A stretch of DNA of 64,000 nt from Monosiga brevicollis MX1 (lineage: Eukaryota > Opisthokonta > Choanoflagellata > Craspedida > Salpingoecidae), in NCBI RefSeq assembly GCF_000002865.3, contig NW_001865047.1:128584-192583 (forward strand), given 5' to 3'. This document shows positions 10,183 through 22,114 of this stretch, piece by piece; positions within the stretch are counted from its first letter, which is position 1, and each line of letters starts with the position of its first letter. The position numbers and the translations under genes are program-made. The notes beneath the pieces were generated by a model. The model saw only the letters and a list, made by a program, of their open reading frames with translations. It did no database searches and was not told the origin of the DNA.

Positions 10183-13100
10183 CCAGTCTGGTACGTGTGT
10201 GTCAAACCCTCGTGTGTGTGTGTGTGTGTGTGTGGTTTTGGAGGAAAAAAAAGCGAAAAACTTTGAGCGCGCACACACACACTCTCTCTCTTGGAAACAA
10301 ATGGCAGCCAGGGGGAGGGAGGGGAAGGGATCTTTGCGGTCCGTGTGTGTATGGGGGTGAATGGTTGGCAGGAGGGAGAGGGGAAGGGTGGGCTGCCAGG
10401 TGTTTGTTCGGCTGGTATTGCCAGCCTTTGCGTGCGAGCCGGGCTCGTCTTGTCACGGGTCTGGCTCGTTTCGCACCACACGGGCCTCTCTTCCCCCTTG
10501 TCCCCGTTCCCTTTCCCCCTCCCCCTGCATGCCTCGTTCTCTTCGCGTTCAATGGATCACCGCATCTTGTGCTCGCGCTTGATGGGGATCGCTCCTCACT
10601 GTTGTTTCTTACCTTCCCTGTGTCTTTCCTGTGCCCCCCTCGTGGCCATGTTTCACTGCGACAGGGTGATGGCGAGCGCCGCGCCTCGTCCGAGCTTTGG
10701 GGTCACGTTGACGTGGCCTCCCTTCCTCAGTGCGTTCCCCCTGCCTGATCGTCTTTTCTCACATTGCTGGCCATGCTGCCCTCTGTGTGCTCAAGGCGCT
10801 TCCGTGGCCTGATACCGTCCGTGACTTCTTGGCGCTTGTCTGCGCATCATCTTGCCAACGTCATAGATCTTTGGACGAGCGGCGCGCAGCAGCCCTGTCC
10901 AGCCGTGCGCCTGGCCGCTTCAGCGTCAATCCCGACGCTGGCAGCGCTGGACCTTCTCGCATGTCCGGATCCCGTGCTAGCAATCTTGATACCCTCCAGC
11001 AATTTTCCGATGACGAAGAAGGTCCGTTTCAATCAATTCCCCATCTCCCCGAACCTGCTCCATCCCCGTGCCCGTCCCGTCCCTGCCTTCAGCCCCTGCC
11101 CTTTGGGAGACACCACTCACATCATCAGCATCATCACTGGCATTATTGTTACAGACACACCGCTGCTGCTGAAGAGCTCTGGATCAGCCGACAGTCGCCG
11201 CCCTTTCACCTACCAGCCCATTCGCGATGCCTCTGCTGCCAAGGACCCCAACAACAGCAACTCCCATGCCTATCAACGCTACCGGTACGGCGTTTGGTTC
11301 CCATTCCTCGGGGATCAAGTAGCTCAACATTGGCATCCTCATGGACCTCATCGTGCTCGTTACTTGACAGTTACTACAACAAGCTAGCGCCTGCCAATCA
11401 GCCAAATAGCTTGGTATGTGCCCCGATTCAACAAGGTTGAGCGTCAAACGATGGATCACTGATGTGCAACTTGTAATCTTTCTGCTTGTATTTTTTTGCT
11501 TTCTTTCTGCAGATTATGCCCCACCACGCCCTGCCGTCGTCCGTCTTCGTTTTGGGCAAGGGTGGCGAGCAGAGCTCTGTGGTGACCATGTATGTGACTG
11601 CAACCCCGACGCCAACTTGTCCCTGATGATCCCGCTCCTCCACCTTTGAATCTGATCTCCATCTGCGTGTCATCGCAGCCTTTCCATGTGGAACACCATG
11701 ATGGGCTCCTCCGTGCTGACCATGCCCTGGGCCATCGATCAGGCTGGCTTTGGTCTTGGTCCGTCTTTTCTTCGACTGTTGACCCGCTGCACCTGTGCAT
11801 CGCCCAGCACTGGCACCTCACCGCTTGACCTGCGTTTATTGTATTGACTCCTTCTTTGACTCGTCTTACAGGCATCTTCGCCATGATTCTCATGGCCACC
11901 GTGTCCTACTACACCTGTACCATCGTCCTCTCTGCAGGCCAGGGCGGTCGCAGTACGTTTGAATGCTCCACTACCTGCCCGTTTTGCACGTGTGTGCTTG
12001 CTCACCCATCACCGTCTTTTTGTCTTGCCACCTGCAGTCAACGGCGAGGATGTCGAGTTTGCCGAGGTCGTGCTGCGCTTCCTGGGCAAGCGCTACTACG
12101 TGGTGGCCGTTATTTTCAGCGTTCTGACCATCGTGGGCGCTGCCATTGCCTATTGGGTGCTCATGTCGGGCTTTCTGTACACCGTGGTCGACTACTTCCA
12201 TGACCCCAGTGGTTCCATCCCAGCCAACTCAACCCATCCCAGTAATCACACTGCCGTCTTGGCGGACGCTCTCCTTGGCGCTAGCGATGGAACCGACTCC
12301 ACCTGGGGTCACTACTGGTCGCGCGAGCTCGTTCCCATCTACCTCATTGCCATCCTATTTCCCCTTATCAACTTTAAGAGTCTGACCTTCTTTACCAAGT
12401 TTAACTCCCTGGGTACGGGCCCGGGGCTTTTCTTTCCTGTTTGGATGTTGGAGGCAGCATCGCTACCGTCAAAGTCTCCAATCATCCTTCTCCCTTCCAC
12501 GCCTTTTCTTACTCACACCTTCCTGACCTGATTACAGGTGTTGTGTCCATCATCTACATCCTATTCTTCGTTTTGTTCACCTTTTTCGATGGCGAGCACT
12601 ATCAAAACAGCCCCGCGGGTGGCGTCCACTTTCACAACGTGGAAGAGTGCGTTGTCGGCCGCCATCCTTTTTGCCGCTTGTTGCCATGGCCTGTGTGCTT
12701 CCCTTCTCACCACCTCTTTCTGCCCACGCACCCGCCTCAGATGGCGCTCAGGCGTAATGGCTCTCTGCGGCGTCTCTTCCCTGGCGTTTTTCATCCACAA
12801 CGGCTGCTTGTCCATTATGCGTAATGCAGCCGAACCAAAGCACAATCAGCGTGATCTTTTGCTCGCCTACATCCTTGTGTGCTTGACCTACCTCCTCGTT
12901 GGTGCGTGCTTGCTTCCTCTTTCTCTCTCTGGACGGATGATTGGGCCCTAAGACGTCGTATTGGGAGCTTATGTTCTAGCGTTGACACCCCTGTCTCCGC
13001 ATGCCCGCCTGCCAGTTGATCGCCCAGCTCACTTGTTTGATGCACGTTCGTATCGCTGCTCTCGTAATATCAGGTGTACTGTACTACATCTCCTACGCGG

Positions 13101-13989
13101 GTAACAAGGACGGCATCAACAACAACTTCTTGCAAGACTTTCACAAGACGGACAAGAATTTCATTTTCTCCTTGATTGCACAGCTTTGTCTACTTTTGCA
13201 AATGATTACAGTGTATGTGCCGATTGGGCCCACATCGTCACCGACACACATGGCATCCCAATGCCTCTTCTTTGGTTTCACGTCTCACGTCCCACGCTCG
13301 GCTACTGCTTCCAGATTTCCACTGCTCATTTTCATCGTCCGCTTTCAAGTCATGTCCACCTTCTTCAATGGCAACGTTTGGCCCAGGTAGCGCGTTGCTT
13401 CTTGCCCAAATGTTGCGTGTTGTAGCAAGCCGCGTGCAGGCCTGTCAGAGGCTGTGGCCAAAACCTTGTTTTGCGTCGGCTCACCACAGCTTGCCCACGC
13501 CTTGCAAATTGCGGCCATAGCTTTGGTCACGTGCTGGGCTTGAACGTCATGATTACCACCGTCTGTGTGCTGGTGGCCATCTTCTATCCTCATATCGGCG
13601 ATATCCTGCGGTATGAACAGCGCCTGGCTTGCCAACTTGTTTTACACAAGCACAGACTCAATCTGAGGGGGTGGACAATGAGCTCTGCCGTGGGCGTTTT
13701 GTGTCAATTCATTCCTTCTCTCCATTTTCTCCTGCTTACAGCTACACGGGCGCCATCTGCGGTTGTGTGTACATCTTTGCGCTGCCCTGCCTGGTGCAAA
13801 TGGAAATTTTACGCCGCCAAAGTATGGGCCTTGCTGTTCCTTTTCTACTGGACGATTAGCCTCGTGTCCTTGTCTCACTTGGAACTTGTATTTGTTGTTG
13901 CAGATAAACTGACCGTGAGCAAACGGGTGATTCATTATCTCCTCATGCTTTTGGGTGTGGGCATTCTGGTCGGACAGTTCACGCCGTGA
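10179..13989 (+). CDS. SLC38A9: SLC38A9-like lysosomal amino-acid transporter
   Basis: Sixteen exons join in a continuous frame: 10179-10190, 10665-10729, 10867-11021, 11155-11284, 11371-11413, 11513-11589, 11679-11758, 11872-11952, 12038-12412, 12538-12646, 12741-12901, 13074-13212, 13315-13386, 13521-13610, 13742-13821 and 13904-13989, predicting 584 residues (human about 561). Every codon phase agrees. The first membrane helix carries SMWNTMMGSSVLTMPWAIDQ, near-identical to human SLC38A9. Later blocks (AYWVLMSGFLY, FPLINFKS, SSLAFFIHNG, YPHIGDILRY) also match. The luminal loop has NST and NHT glycosylation sites. In animals SLC38A9 exports amino acids from lysosomes and reports arginine to Rag-Ragulator/mTORC1. 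The N-terminal cytosolic tail keeps the YYxxL and P-x-H-x-x-P elements that bind Rag. Orthology is strong; sensing is inferred. Confidence 0.95.
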
Positions 13990-17178: not shown

Positions 17179-20100
17179 TCACGACTCGGCAGGCACGGTC
17201 CAGTTTGAGACCAAGGCGTCCAACTGCTCAGCTATGGCAGGCAATATTGGGCGATGGGTGGGCTCACCCACCCAGCAGCTCGTCATGAGTGTGATCAACA
17301 AGTCTGGGGCATCTGGCCGCGCCGATGTCACGGCTGCTGGATCAAGGCGCTTGCCAGCATCCAAAAGGCGCCACAGTCCAGTGAGGAGGGGCCCCCTGTA
17401 CTTGTCTGGGCCGCCGTACTCTTGCGCCAGCAAATCAGGTGTTTGGCTGGTCAGGGCTTCCCACATCAGCACGCCAAAGGAAAAAACGTCTGCGGGAAGG
17501 CCACCGTTGCACGCCGTGGCCAGGACCTCGACAGCCATGTACAGAGGCGTGCCAGCCATTCCACTCTGCGTCAGACTTGCCTCCATGTTCTCAACCAGCA
17601 AATCACGTCCCACCGAGCCCAGAGATGCGTCGCTCGCAACATCGCTCCCTGGCTTGGTCAGACTGGCATTGACCCCAACCAGGCGCTCGCGCAGCTTGAC
17701 AGAGCCAAAATCTGTAACCTTGGCTCGATATTGCTCCGTCACCAGCACGTTGCCCGCCTTGATATCTCGGTGGGCGTGGCCCAATTGGTGGAGATACGCC
17801 AGCCCCGATGCCACATCGGCTAAAATCTGCACTCGTTGCTCCGTTGACAGGTCGCGGGGCTGGCTGCCGCGCAAAACAGAGCGCAGCGAACCTTGCTTCA
17901 CAAGCTCCAAGACCAGGAAGGGAATCTGGCGTTGGGCGCCAAAGTCCCCCTCGCCCGCTCCAAAGAACCGCACCAAATGCGGGTGGCGTGTACGCTGCAA
18001 AAAGTCGAGCTCCTTCTCAAAATCTTGCACGGCTGCAAAGTTGGCTGCAGCCGATGCATTGAGGATTTTGACACAGACCTCCAAGTCCTGCCAACGGGCA
18101 CCCCAGACCTCGCCAAAGGCACCAGGTGAGTCTCCGTCAATGCGCTTCAAGAGCTCAAGCTCACTGCGCTGGATTCGCCAGGCTTGCTTCAGCTCGGCAA
18201 TCTCGTCATGATACGTCTCAGCAAGCAGAAGCCGCTCTAGCTCATGGGCCTCGTGCAGGCGTCGCATGCGCCGGGCTTGCCACCTGTGCAAGCCCACCGT
18301 GCTCAGCATCAGGAGGCCTACGGCCACGAGTGTCATGAGGGCCACAAACCACGGGCGCTGAACCAAGGGCGTGTGGTGCGGTATAGGCAGGCAATGGGTG
18401 CCGTTGGGCGCTTGGTAGCCTGGTGAGCACTCGCAGAAAAACCGATGCCCGCCAAAGCCATCGGTGCTTTGCACAACCTGGCTGGTATCTGGCATGACAC
18501 CCTGCGAGCTAGTCGGCCGCAGCGCACACTGCAGCGGGCTGTTTTGCAGAAAGACGGAGGGCACATCGTTCAGGCTGCACACAATCTGACCCGTACTGTC
18601 TGTGGCAGCACAGCCATCGGCCCACGTGTTGCCGACATACAGGTGCTCGCCAAGGACCGACGTGACTGCCTGAAGACTGGTGATGGAATTGTTGGAGAGG
18701 TCGATAACCTTGGTGCCCGCGCGGATGCACTGCCGAAGCAAGTTGGCCCACGGCAGCGCATCCTCTTGATTGCTCGCCACACTGACCAGCGCGGTGCCGG
18801 TCCGGGCGCAGAGCAGCGGCGACAGGGGCAGTCTTGTGCGCGACAAGTCAAAGACGCTGGCGTTCAGCATGGTTGCCCGGGCCAGCACTGGGTTGCCTGA
18901 GACGTTGTAGCTCTCCAATGTGCCATGAAAACCATCGATTTGCAACGCGGTGAGGCGGGGCATGGCATGCACGTCCAGCTGTCTGAGCTCAGCTTCTGGA
19001 GTGGGCGCAAAGGCCAGAGCAAGGGTGGCGGCGTGTGGCCAACAGCTGATATCGAGTTGCGTGAGGTGAGGTAAAGCACTCAAGTTGAGGAGAGGGGTGG
19101 CGAGCGTTGAGCCCAGTAGGCCGGGAGCCAACAGGGTCAGACTGGGCCAGTCGGACCAGGTCAGCCCCGTGACAGCAGCACCGGTCAGCGTGAGCACGGT
19201 CAATGGTGCTGAAGCAGGCACCTGCACATCCACCTGGTAAGTAGCCGGGCAGTCATTGCGAGCCAGGTGCAGTTCTTGGAGCAGGGGGTACCCACGCAGG
19301 TCGAGCGCCAAGGTGGTCAGCAGCGTGTCGCTCAGATCGAGAGTGAGCAGTTCGGGGCTCTTCGGAAGGACAGAGCTGTTCAGCTGCTGAAGGGGGTTCT
19401 GAGCCAGGCTCAGCTTGTAAAGCCGGGTCAAGGGGGCAAGCGTGGCTGGGTCGAGCACACTAAGGCGATTCTCGGTGAGCTGGAGTCGGTACAATTGAGT
19501 GAGGCCAGCAAAAGTGTCCGGTGCAAGGGTGGTGAGCTGATTGCTGTTAAAGTCGAGGTCGTGAAGACTGGTAAGGGGGGCGAGGAGACCCGGAGGCAAG
19601 GTGGTGAGCTGGTTCGACATGAGGAAGAGGGTGTCCATTTGCGTGCACGCCTTGAAGAGGCCGGCTGGAAGAGCGGTGAGTTGGTTCTTCTGCAGGGATA
19701 GACTCATGATCGAGGGAGTTTTGTCGAATAGACCAGCAGGAAGGGTGGACAGCTGATTGCCTTGAAGGACGAGGCTGAAGACATTGGGGACGTGATCAAA
19801 GACGTGTGCAGGCAGGGTGGTGATTTGGTTCCAGGCGAGGCTGAGGCTGCCCAGGCTCGAGAGGCCAGCAAAAGAGTCGAGTGCGAGGGTGTTGAGCCAG
19901 TTGTTGCTGAGGTCGAGCGAGTTGAGTTGGGCCAGGTTGGACCACAGACCACTCGGGAGGGCGGATAGCAGGTTGGTCGAGAGGTCGAGGATGTTGAGCT
20001 CGGGGGTGTGGGCAAAGGTGTCGACCGACAGGGCTGTGAGTTGGTTCTGATGGAGGTAGAGCGTGACGAGCTGTGAGGTGGCGCGAAAGCATTGGTCGGG

Positions 20101-21819
20101 CAGGGCCGTGAGCGCGTTGTCGCTGAGGTAGAGGTTGTACAGTTGGCCCTGGGCGGCAAAGATGCCGTCTGCGAGGGCCGTGAGGCGATTGTCGCTCAGG
20201 GTGATTTGTGCCAGGGCAGGGTTGAGAGCCCAGAGATCCGCGGGGAGGCCCGTGAGTAGGTTGCCGGTGAGGTCGAGCGCGCTCAGCTGGGGCATGGCGG
20301 CGAAGGTATCTGAAGCAAGTGTGGTCAGGACATTGTGGGCCAGGGTGACAGATTGGAGGTTGGTGAGGTTTCGAAAGAGGGCGGGATCAAGGGCGGTAAG
20401 GCCATTGGAGTCGAGGGAGAGGGCGATGAGCTGGGAGAGGGAGGCAAAAATGGGGCCAGACAGGGCGACGAGCTCGTTCTTCTCCAGGCTCAGTTGTTGC
20501 AGTTGTGTTTGGTCGGCGAGGAGCATGGGGTGTAGGGCCGTGAGGGCGTTGGCGGCAAGGTCAAGGATGCCGAGCTGGGAGAGGCCGGCCAGGGCCTGGG
20601 GGCTGAGGGCGGCGAGGTCATTGTGGGCGAGACGCAGGGCAAGGAGATTGGTCAAGGGTTGAAAGAGGGTCTCGGGTAAGGGAGCGAGGAGGCGGTTGTG
20701 GGCAAGACCGAGGGCGGCAAGGGTGGAGAGATTTTGGAAGGTGCCATCGGGGAGGAAGGCAAGCTGATTGTGAGTGAGGTCGAGGAGCCAGAGGTGGGTT
20801 TGATGGGCAAAGAGGTTTGGGGGTAGGTTGGTGAGGTTGTTGTAGGCCAGGTCCAGGACGATGAGTTGAGAAAAGGCGTCCAGGGCGTGAGGGGGCAGGG
20901 TGGTGAGGGTGTTGCTCTGAAGGTCGAGGGCCGCAAGGGCAGGATGGTGGTTGGGGTCTGGGAGGACAAGGCGGCCATTCTGGGCACGAAGGCCAAAGGT
21001 AGTGAGGTTGGTGTGGGCCAGGAGCTGATGGATGGAAGAGTTGGTGGCAGATGGTGCACTGGAGGGGACGGTAATGTAGAGGGCATCGAGGTGGGCCAGG
21101 TGGTCCAGCAGGTCAAAGGCCACGAGGGCGGCGAGGAAGGTATCGGGATCGGCGTTGAGAATGAGCCAAGGGCTCTGGCCGGATTGCTCGAGGGCGAGCC
21201 AGGGTGCGGAAGCGTTGCAGTCGGCGGTCCAATTGGGGCCGATGACGAGGACAGTGGCGGGTTGGAGAGGGCCGGTGCCGTCGGGGTTGAGAGGCTCGCC
21301 ACCCTGGTCGTCGCTTTCGCCGTAGTCGAGCTCAAGGGCACCAGTACCTTGGGTCCAAGGAACCAAGGCCCATGTGCACTGTTGAGTGGGCGCTGGCGTG
21401 GCTTTGATCCCCGCATGGACGGACCGTGAGGCGCGATCCAAGGCCAAAGCGACAGGGTCCTGAGCCCCTACCTGGGCTGTCAATCCCTGGTTGGTCCAGA
21501 GCGACTCTGGCAAGGGTTGCCGCGGTGTGGGGGGTGGGGTGGCCACCGGTGGTGGCGGTGCGGGGGCTTCAAAGGAGGCCAAGGGCGATGGGGAGGCCCA
21601 GTCGGCACACAGCTCGGTGAGGGCCACATGCAGGGGATCGCTGGGATCAAGGGGAGCTTGAAGCTGACACACGCGTTCAACGTGTTGACTCAAGGGGTCA
21701 AGGTGCCCGCTACCCCGAGTCTGGGTGCCTGCACACCAGGTGCATTTCATGAGGCCCTCAAGGCAAACCCAAAACAGGCATAACCGAGCCACCGTGCTCT
21801 GGCGCGCCCCAACTGCCAT
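17179..21819 (-). CDS. LRR receptor kinase, TKL-like, intronless
   Basis: A single uninterrupted frame encodes 1546 residues. A hydrophobic signal peptide (LCLFWVCLEG) is followed by a Cys-containing N-cap and a long array of roughly two dozen 24-residue leucine-rich repeats (consensus L..L.L..N.LT.LP...F). A Cys-rich EGF-like remnant (FFCECSPGYQAPNGTHC) precedes one membrane helix near residues 1156-1178 (FVALMTLVAVGLLML). The cytoplasmic kinase spans about 1222-1535. It has a glycine loop (GAFGEVWG), Lys in VCVKIL, catalytic HRDIKAGN near 1348 and DFG near 1369. HRDIKxxN is the serine/threonine or TKL form, not the tyrosine-kinase form. The APE motif reads AVE. The design parallels plant LRR receptor kinases and choanoflagellate receptor TKL kinases. 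The ligand is unknown. The lack of introns is unusual here. Confidence 0.92.
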   Translation of the reverse strand: MAVGARQSTVARLCLFWVCLEGLMKCTWCAGTQTRGSGHLDPLSQHVERVCQLQAPLDPSDPLHVALTELCADWASPSPLASFEAPAPPPPVATPPPTPRQPLPESLWTNQGLTAQVGAQDPVALALDRASRSVHAGIKATPAPTQQCTWALVPWTQGTGALELDYGESDDQGGEPLNPDGTGPLQPATVLVIGPNWTADCNASAPWLALEQSGQSPWLILNADPDTFLAALVAFDLLDHLAHLDALYITVPSSAPSATNSSIHQLLAHTNLTTFGLRAQNGRLVLPDPNHHPALAALDLQSNTLTTLPPHALDAFSQLIVLDLAYNNLTNLPPNLFAHQTHLWLLDLTHNQLAFLPDGTFQNLSTLAALGLAHNRLLAPLPETLFQPLTNLLALRLAHNDLAALSPQALAGLSQLGILDLAANALTALHPMLLADQTQLQQLSLEKNELVALSGPIFASLSQLIALSLDSNGLTALDPALFRNLTNLQSVTLAHNVLTTLASDTFAAMPQLSALDLTGNLLTGLPADLWALNPALAQITLSDNRLTALADGIFAAQGQLYNLYLSDNALTALPDQCFRATSQLVTLYLHQNQLTALSVDTFAHTPELNILDLSTNLLSALPSGLWSNLAQLNSLDLSNNWLNTLALDSFAGLSSLGSLSLAWNQITTLPAHVFDHVPNVFSLVLQGNQLSTLPAGLFDKTPSIMSLSLQKNQLTALPAGLFKACTQMDTLFLMSNQLTTLPPGLLAPLTSLHDLDFNSNQLTTLAPDTFAGLTQLYRLQLTENRLSVLDPATLAPLTRLYKLSLAQNPLQQLNSSVLPKSPELLTLDLSDTLLTTLALDLRGYPLLQELHLARNDCPATYQVDVQVPASAPLTVLTLTGAAVTGLTWSDWPSLTLLAPGLLGSTLATPLLNLSALPHLTQLDISCWPHAATLALAFAPTPEAELRQLDVHAMPRLTALQIDGFHGTLESYNVSGNPVLARATMLNASVFDLSRTRLPLSPLLCARTGTALVSVASNQEDALPWANLLRQCIRAGTKVIDLSNNSITSLQAVTSVLGEHLYVGNTWADGCAATDSTGQIVCSLNDVPSVFLQNSPLQCALRPTSSQGVMPDTSQVVQSTDGFGGHRFFCECSPGYQAPNGTHCLPIPHHTPLVQRPWFVALMTLVAVGLLMLSTVGLHRWQARRMRRLHEAHELERLLLAETYHDEIAELKQAWRIQRSELELLKRIDGDSPGAFGEVWGARWQDLEVCVKILNASAAANFAAVQDFEKELDFLQRTRHPHLVRFFGAGEGDFGAQRQIPFLVLELVKQGSLRSVLRGSQPRDLSTEQRVQILADVASGLAYLHQLGHAHRDIKAGNVLVTEQYRAKVTDFGSVKLRERLVGVNASLTKPGSDVASDASLGSVGRDLLVENMEASLTQSGMAGTPLYMAVEVLATACNGGLPADVFSFGVLMWEALTSQTPDLLAQEYGGPDKYRGPLLTGLWRLLDAGKRLDPAAVTSARPDAPDLLITLMTSCWVGEPTHRPILPAIAEQLDALVSNWTVPAES

Positions 21820-22114
21820 ATTTTTTTATAACTCTGTCCGAAAAAAAAAAAAAAAACGAAGCAAGATACAAGCACGTGAGTCCCCCCAGTTTCCATCATC
21901 CTTGACCCAACGTTGGAAACGCATGCCGCCACACGACAGCACACCGCCGAGCACAAGCCACACGGCAGCTCGGGATACCGATCCGTACGTACACACCTCC
22001 AACGCCGCTCATGCTCTCACAACGCTCCGCTCCCCTGAGCACGGAAATGATGACAATTATATAATGATGACAACGCCGCTTGAAAGTGTAAAACAAGATC
22101 TTGTTCGTACGTCT

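Follow-up and report, generated by a model that had tools for sequence, protein, structure and literature searches.

A candidate SLC38A9 orthologue in Monosiga brevicollis with most of the reported Rag-contact residues in its tail and a shortened counterpart of the pore plug

The gene model and its family

The window, by which we mean the whole stretch of 64,000 nucleotides analysed here, carries a gene on its forward strand at 10961-13989, for which we built a 14-exon model with splice sites read by hand and exons spliced by script. The encoded protein has 527 residues; the 584-residue product given in the earlier note was not reproduced. The frame is open to the stop codon, which ends at 13989, and 13 of the 13 introns (82-172 bases) are GT-AG and in phase, in a splicing pattern deduced from the DNA alone. 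The earlier note had read an N-terminal tail from exons 11155-11284, 11371-11413 and 11513-11589, and this reading is real: the three join in phase (...AYQRYRYYNKLAPANQPNSL followed by IMPHHALPSSVFVLG...), with GT...AG introns on either side. Exon 11155-11284 contains a stop when read from its own first base, its phase being set by the first exon, 10961-11021. The exons of the model, all on the forward strand, are listed below.

10961..11021, + strand: exon 1 with the predicted start codon, the first ATG in the open frame 10712-11440; MSGSRASNLDTLQQFSDDEE
11155..11284, + strand: exon 2, tail, contains TPLLL and RRPF
11371..11413, + strand: exon 3, tail
11513..11589, + strand: exon 4, with PHHALP, the shortened plug and linker, and the start of the first membrane helix (TM1)
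11679..11758, + strand: exon 5, TM1
11872..11952, + strand: exon 6
12038..12412, + strand: exon 7
12538..12646, + strand: exon 8
12741..12901, + strand: exon 9
13074..13212, + strand: exon 10
13315..13386, + strand: exon 11
13521..13610, + strand: exon 12
13742..13821, + strand: exon 13
13904..13989, + strand: exon 14 with the stop codon

Further along the window, on the reverse strand, positions 17182-21825 hold an uninterrupted frame of 1548 residues in which twelve LRR_8 stretches precede a Tyr/Ser-Thr kinase domain, an architecture resembling that of LRR receptor kinases.

The predicted protein is a member of the Aa_trans family (PF01490, 118.7 bits against a cut-off of 25.6, residues 102-516). 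Its best match among PDB sequences was zebrafish SLC38A9 (7kgv_A, E 4.9e-87, residues 34-525), and the second, 6c08_C (E 2.5e-84), is also zebrafish SLC38A9; the remaining two of the four matches found up to E 10 were unrelated and weak (E 0.12 and 2.1). SLC36A1 (PAT1), which we take to be another Aa_trans member, was not matched up to E 10, though present in the PDB sequences searched. It is a proton-coupled amino acid transporter, and a Monosiga paralogue on contig C49 with PF01490 matches it weakly (E 1.3e-5). A tblastn search with zebrafish SLC38A9 covered the window and six paralogue loci, defined as the assembly loci matching PF01490 in a search that undercounts large families; the window gene came first (best piece E 1.5e-16) and the six loci followed at E 0.011 or worse. 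From residue 100 of the zebrafish protein onward, the two proteins share 176 of 420 aligned residues. Used as a query against the assembly, the window protein matched its own gene as the sole match up to E 10. Pattern searches for its relatives gave 29 matches in viral_contigs and 77 in genome_contigs, with 0 confirmed in either set, and an NCBIfam search returned no match.

At the start of the membrane domain, in TM1, the two proteins align as follows:

11689..11712, + strand: WNTMMGSS, residues 108-115, aligned to zebrafish WNTMMGTS, with Ser114 at the position of human Thr133

WNTMM is identical to the zebrafish sequence, and the GTS motif named for TM1 of SLC38A9 (PMC7981857) reads GSS here. 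A Ser at human Thr133, as the earlier note had it, holds up: Ser114 is the counterpart of zebrafish Thr121, which we equate with human Thr133 by the numbering shift of 12 residues seen at human His544 and zebrafish His532 rather than through a direct human alignment.

By best-match tests among the sequences compared, which outside Monosiga were human (tail only) and zebrafish, the window gene qualifies as the Monosiga brevicollis orthologue of SLC38A9. The earlier identification of an SLC38A9 homologue is supported, by the PDB matches, the zebrafish tblastn search and the comparison with SLC36A1, and its placement outside animals is correct, the host being a choanoflagellate. In the same assembly, a 57-residue stretch of a Munc18 gene on contig C47 agrees at 57/57 residues with PDB 2xhe_A (UNC18), which identifies the genome as that of Monosiga brevicollis; another Sec1-family gene is Vps45-like. 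Since planarian and aphid homologues have already been named (PMC7981857, PMC6118303), the SLC38A9 family was known beyond vertebrates.

Tail motifs and Rag-contact residues

The Rag-binding stretch of SLC38A9 is reported to span residues 39-97 (PMC9499541), with 85PDH87, P85 and P90 involved in binding (PMC9994763), and the I68A variant is described as losing Rag-Ragulator binding with arginine transport similar to wild type (PMC9025135). In the structure entry 6wj2_H, the human tail reads KRPF...RIHYYSRL...APDHVVP, and the numbering given in the earlier note (I68, Y71, L74, P85 and P90) fits this row with its K as residue 37. Y71 and L74 are presumably Rag-binding residues as well. Three stretches of the predicted tail align with this region:

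11196..11207, + strand: RRPF, residues 35-38, matching human KRPF 37-40 and zebrafish RRPF 27-30
11372..11386, + strand: YYNKL, residues 65-69, aligned to human Y70, Y71, S72, R73 and L74
11519..11536, + strand: PHHALP, residues 81-86, aligned to human P85, D86, H87, V88, V89 and P90

The counterparts of human I68, Y71, L74, P85 and P90 are Y63, Y66, L69, P81 and P86. Four of the five Rag residues singled out earlier are thus identical (Y71, L74, P85 and P90), and the fifth, Ile68, is replaced by Tyr63, at a position that is occupied by Val in zebrafish. Human H87 is kept as H83, and human D86 is replaced by His. YYxxL and PxHxxP are separated as previously described, with one extra residue (a gap from L to P of 12 against 11 in human 6wj2_H), and RPF is kept as well, upstream and close to where the reported Rag-binding stretch begins. 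The features shared with zebrafish SLC38A9 (7KGV and 6C08) and the human tail (6WJ2) are WNTMM, the counterpart of His544, RPF, YYxxL and PxHxxP.

Elsewhere in the tail, residues 20-26 (EDTPLLL; window 11018-11021 and 11155-11171, spanning the first intron) resemble an acidic dileucine sorting signal, a kind of short motif that is frequent by chance.

It is highly improbable that the protein is an ordinary SLC38-like transporter whose tail resembles that of SLC38A9 by accident or through an artefact of splicing. Such an origin would be compatible with splicing read from DNA only and with a phmmer search of PDB sequences in which a 65-residue tail piece alone retrieved zero SLC38A9 chains up to E 10, the matches being seed-storage proteins alone (E 0.43 to 1). 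The shuffle tests argue otherwise: when residues 1-98 were aligned locally, 0 of 5000 shuffles scored as high as the true sequence against the human tail and 15 of 5000 did so against the zebrafish tail, and YYxxL-x(8-14)-PxHxxP arose in 1 of 200,000. The uniformly GT-AG, in-phase introns, the presence of PHHALP and the TM1 start within one exon, and the additional alignment of RPF point the same way. Identity to zebrafish SLC38A9 across the tail is 16/62 aligned positions. A PDB profile search with alignment A1 reached the human tail at E 2.8e-18, a value that is not independent, as A1 contains the zebrafish sequence.

Single matches to YYxxL, PxHxxP or RPFxxxP occur in the six paralogue loci, which were scanned unspliced in six frames. 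RPFxxxP and YYxxL share a frame once, at locus L037 (+), where they lie 233 residues apart; YYxxL followed by PxHxxP is absent from the six loci in this unspliced scan, in which intron-split or outlying motifs are missed. A comparable segment has been reported from budding yeast, in Ait1, a GPCR-like, non-SLC38A9 membrane protein that is restricted to Saccharomycetaceae/codaceae and acts on Gtr1/2 through its C3 loop; this loop is described as similar to the part of SLC38A9 that binds Rags (PMC9499541), and the window tail is likened to it here by description.

Judged by these residues, Rag docking by the Monosiga tail is plausible. The chief alternative is that Rag docking by this tail was lost or had not yet arisen: the orthologue would then be a transporter only, its tail residues being kept for some other purpose, such as sorting or another partner. 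The replacements of Ile68 by Tyr and Asp86 by His, the one-residue insertion and the acidic dileucine-like EDTPLLL are what such a protein might display. On the other hand, residues reported for Rag binding are among those kept, at near-equal spacing, while the rest of the tail diverges, and we consider this rival somewhat unlikely.

Pore plug, sockets and pH sensor

In zebrafish SLC38A9, the segment Asp75-Leu90 has a further role: folded into a hairpin, it occupies the vacant arginine site (PMC9994763). Two features of the window protein relate to this plug and to the reported pH sensor:

11537..11572, + strand: residues 87-98, corresponding to the N-plug return strand and linker in shortened form, from the zebrafish alignments
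13933..13935, + strand: His510, aligned to human His544 and zebrafish His532, the reported pH sensor

From P86 to the TM1 Trp (W108) there are 22 residues, compared with 36 in zebrafish. Because PHHALP and SSVVT, which aligns with the TM1 start, share one exon, this shortening is independent of splice choice. The plug residues themselves, in an alignment that may be off by one or two residues, are identical at two of the seven zebrafish positions named for side-chain or tip contacts (S80 as S87, H76 as H83); E82 is missing, Y85 is replaced by Phe, Y87 by Leu and S88 by Gly, and H81 has no His counterpart in either alignment. Among the plug-partner side chains, 0/5 are identical, with T121 replaced by Ser, S297 by Thr, T303 by Asn, C363 by Gly and Y448 by Phe, of which the first two are conservative Ser/Thr swaps. 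The main-chain partners T117, M118 and M119, within WNTMM, are identical (3/3). At the pH sensor, His510 and Tyr144 are kept, and their partners differ (R155 to Ile, S511 to Cys and S528 to Lys). The N-plug hairpin and sockets that characterise the zebrafish ball-and-chain transceptor are therefore not found in this form in the window protein.

This evidence bears on a second rival, a full vertebrate-type transceptor whose tail would both bind Rags and plug the pore, to be released by arginine. The identical main-chain partners, the kept Ser80 and His76 counterparts and the kept His510 and Tyr144 are consistent with such a protein. The losses and replacements at the other plug positions and at the sockets, even with T121 and S297 counted as conservative changes, argue against it, as do the 14 residues missing between P86 and W108, both ends of the shortened stretch lying in a single exon, and the altered pH-sensor partners. 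We regard a full transceptor as improbable, and vertebrate-style arginine gating in Monosiga SLC38A9 as unsupported by the sequence comparisons.

The loops also differ from those of zebrafish SLC38A9, in which a disulphide joins loop 3-4 to loop 7-8 (PMC7981857), whereas the window protein has no Cys between residues 146 and 328 or between 366 and 411, the regions in which such a bond would require them. Exon 7 (12038-12412) encodes two N-glycosylation sequons, NST and NHT, at residues 221 and 227, in the presumed luminal TM3-TM4 loop.

Rag pathway genes and the proposed role of the tail

The assembly searched comprises 39.5 Mb in 57 contigs. A PF04670 profile search found one Rag gene, RagC (contig C56, 1161313-1162573, reverse strand, locus L005), confirmed by comparison with human RagC and by a search from a human RagC query. 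The assembly also holds Folliculin-family matches on contigs C54 (E 7.3e-23) and C50, an NPRL2-like match (E 8.1e-6) and a LAMTOR3-like match (E 2.8e-4, 25.5 bits against a cut-off of 25). The last two were assigned provisionally, by the resemblance of their translations to the human proteins.

RagA was not found in the assembly by PF04670 at E 0.001 or at E 10. A human RagA query against the assembly gave no match, an empty answer that would be uninformative without a control; in the same mode, a 75-residue RagC query matched two exons. An assembly-wide search for the pattern WDCGGQD returned one unrelated match. LAMTOR1 was likewise not found in the assembly, by a search that retrieved none of its controls.

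Three RagA candidates were set aside on the motifs in their translations. Two were the weaker matches of the PF04670 search: the one on contig C24 (E 0.0011; 22.6 bits, the cut-off being 22) looks Arf-like and the one on C23 (E 0.0113) looks Rab-like. The third, the WDCGGQ-like pattern match on C50, has no RagA context in its translation.

Since assembly loci hold runs of N, the missing RagA may reflect an assembly gap. A search of the same genome for Rag and Ragulator genes, which the earlier note had proposed as a check, gave the following: RagC and a LAMTOR3-like match are there, and RagA and LAMTOR1 were not found, in an assembly interrupted by N gaps. A transporter without Rag docking gains from the missing RagA given the positive RagC control, but RagC and the NPRL2-like, LAMTOR3-like and Folliculin-family matches suggest that the Rag pathway is present in Monosiga.

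We favour, with a probability of about 0.6, an SLC38A9 orthologue whose tail docks on the Rag dimer and which probably lacks the fish-type plug or has it in another form. The protein would be an Aa_trans amino-acid transporter, probably located in the lysosomal or endosomal membrane. RPF, YYxxL and PxHxxP would probably hold its cytosolic tail of ~98 residues on the Rag GTPase dimer, in a manner close to that of the human tail, and, to judge from the identity of these residues, the docked tail could tether or tune TORC1 activation. Arginine or other amino acids would be transported via the substrate backbone site at WNTMM, which is kept. A switch of the fish type, with arginine driving the hairpin plug out of the pore, probably either has no counterpart in Monosiga or works differently there.

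The earlier note had suggested that the lysosomal arginine-sensing arm of mTORC1 predates animals. Much of what led to it stands, namely the orthologue, its presence outside animals, four of the five Rag residues, RPF and H87. The arginine-sensing arm itself is unsupported as stated, given that plug and sockets are shortened or replaced, that Tyr stands in place of Ile68 and that the assembly yielded no RagA; the missing RagA counts against the claim without refuting it. In a more speculative scenario, which we hold to be unlikely, the Rag-docking half (RPF, YYxxL and PxHxxP) would be ancestral to choanoflagellates and animals, and the plug half would have been added or completed in animals or lost in Monosiga, whose protein would be a Rag tether without fish-type plug gating, possibly with a diverged RagA.

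The window gene has likely been recorded before, for example as an unreviewed database entry, and its tail may have been described. A 2025 survey of TORC1 components includes M. brevicollis among its outgroups, and 'SLC38' is absent from its main text (PMC11836306); the main text of a 2017 survey is without SLC38A9 (PMC5745459). Among the matches listed in the open-licence literature, 'SLC38A9' and 'choanoflagellate' occurred together only in a review of two-pore channels.

As a variant of a known family, Monosiga SLC38A9 is possibly informative. If our reading is true, a choanoflagellate SLC38A9 with most of the Rag-contact residues would date the docking segment to before animals, and this natural variant might allow docking to be distinguished from pore-plugging.
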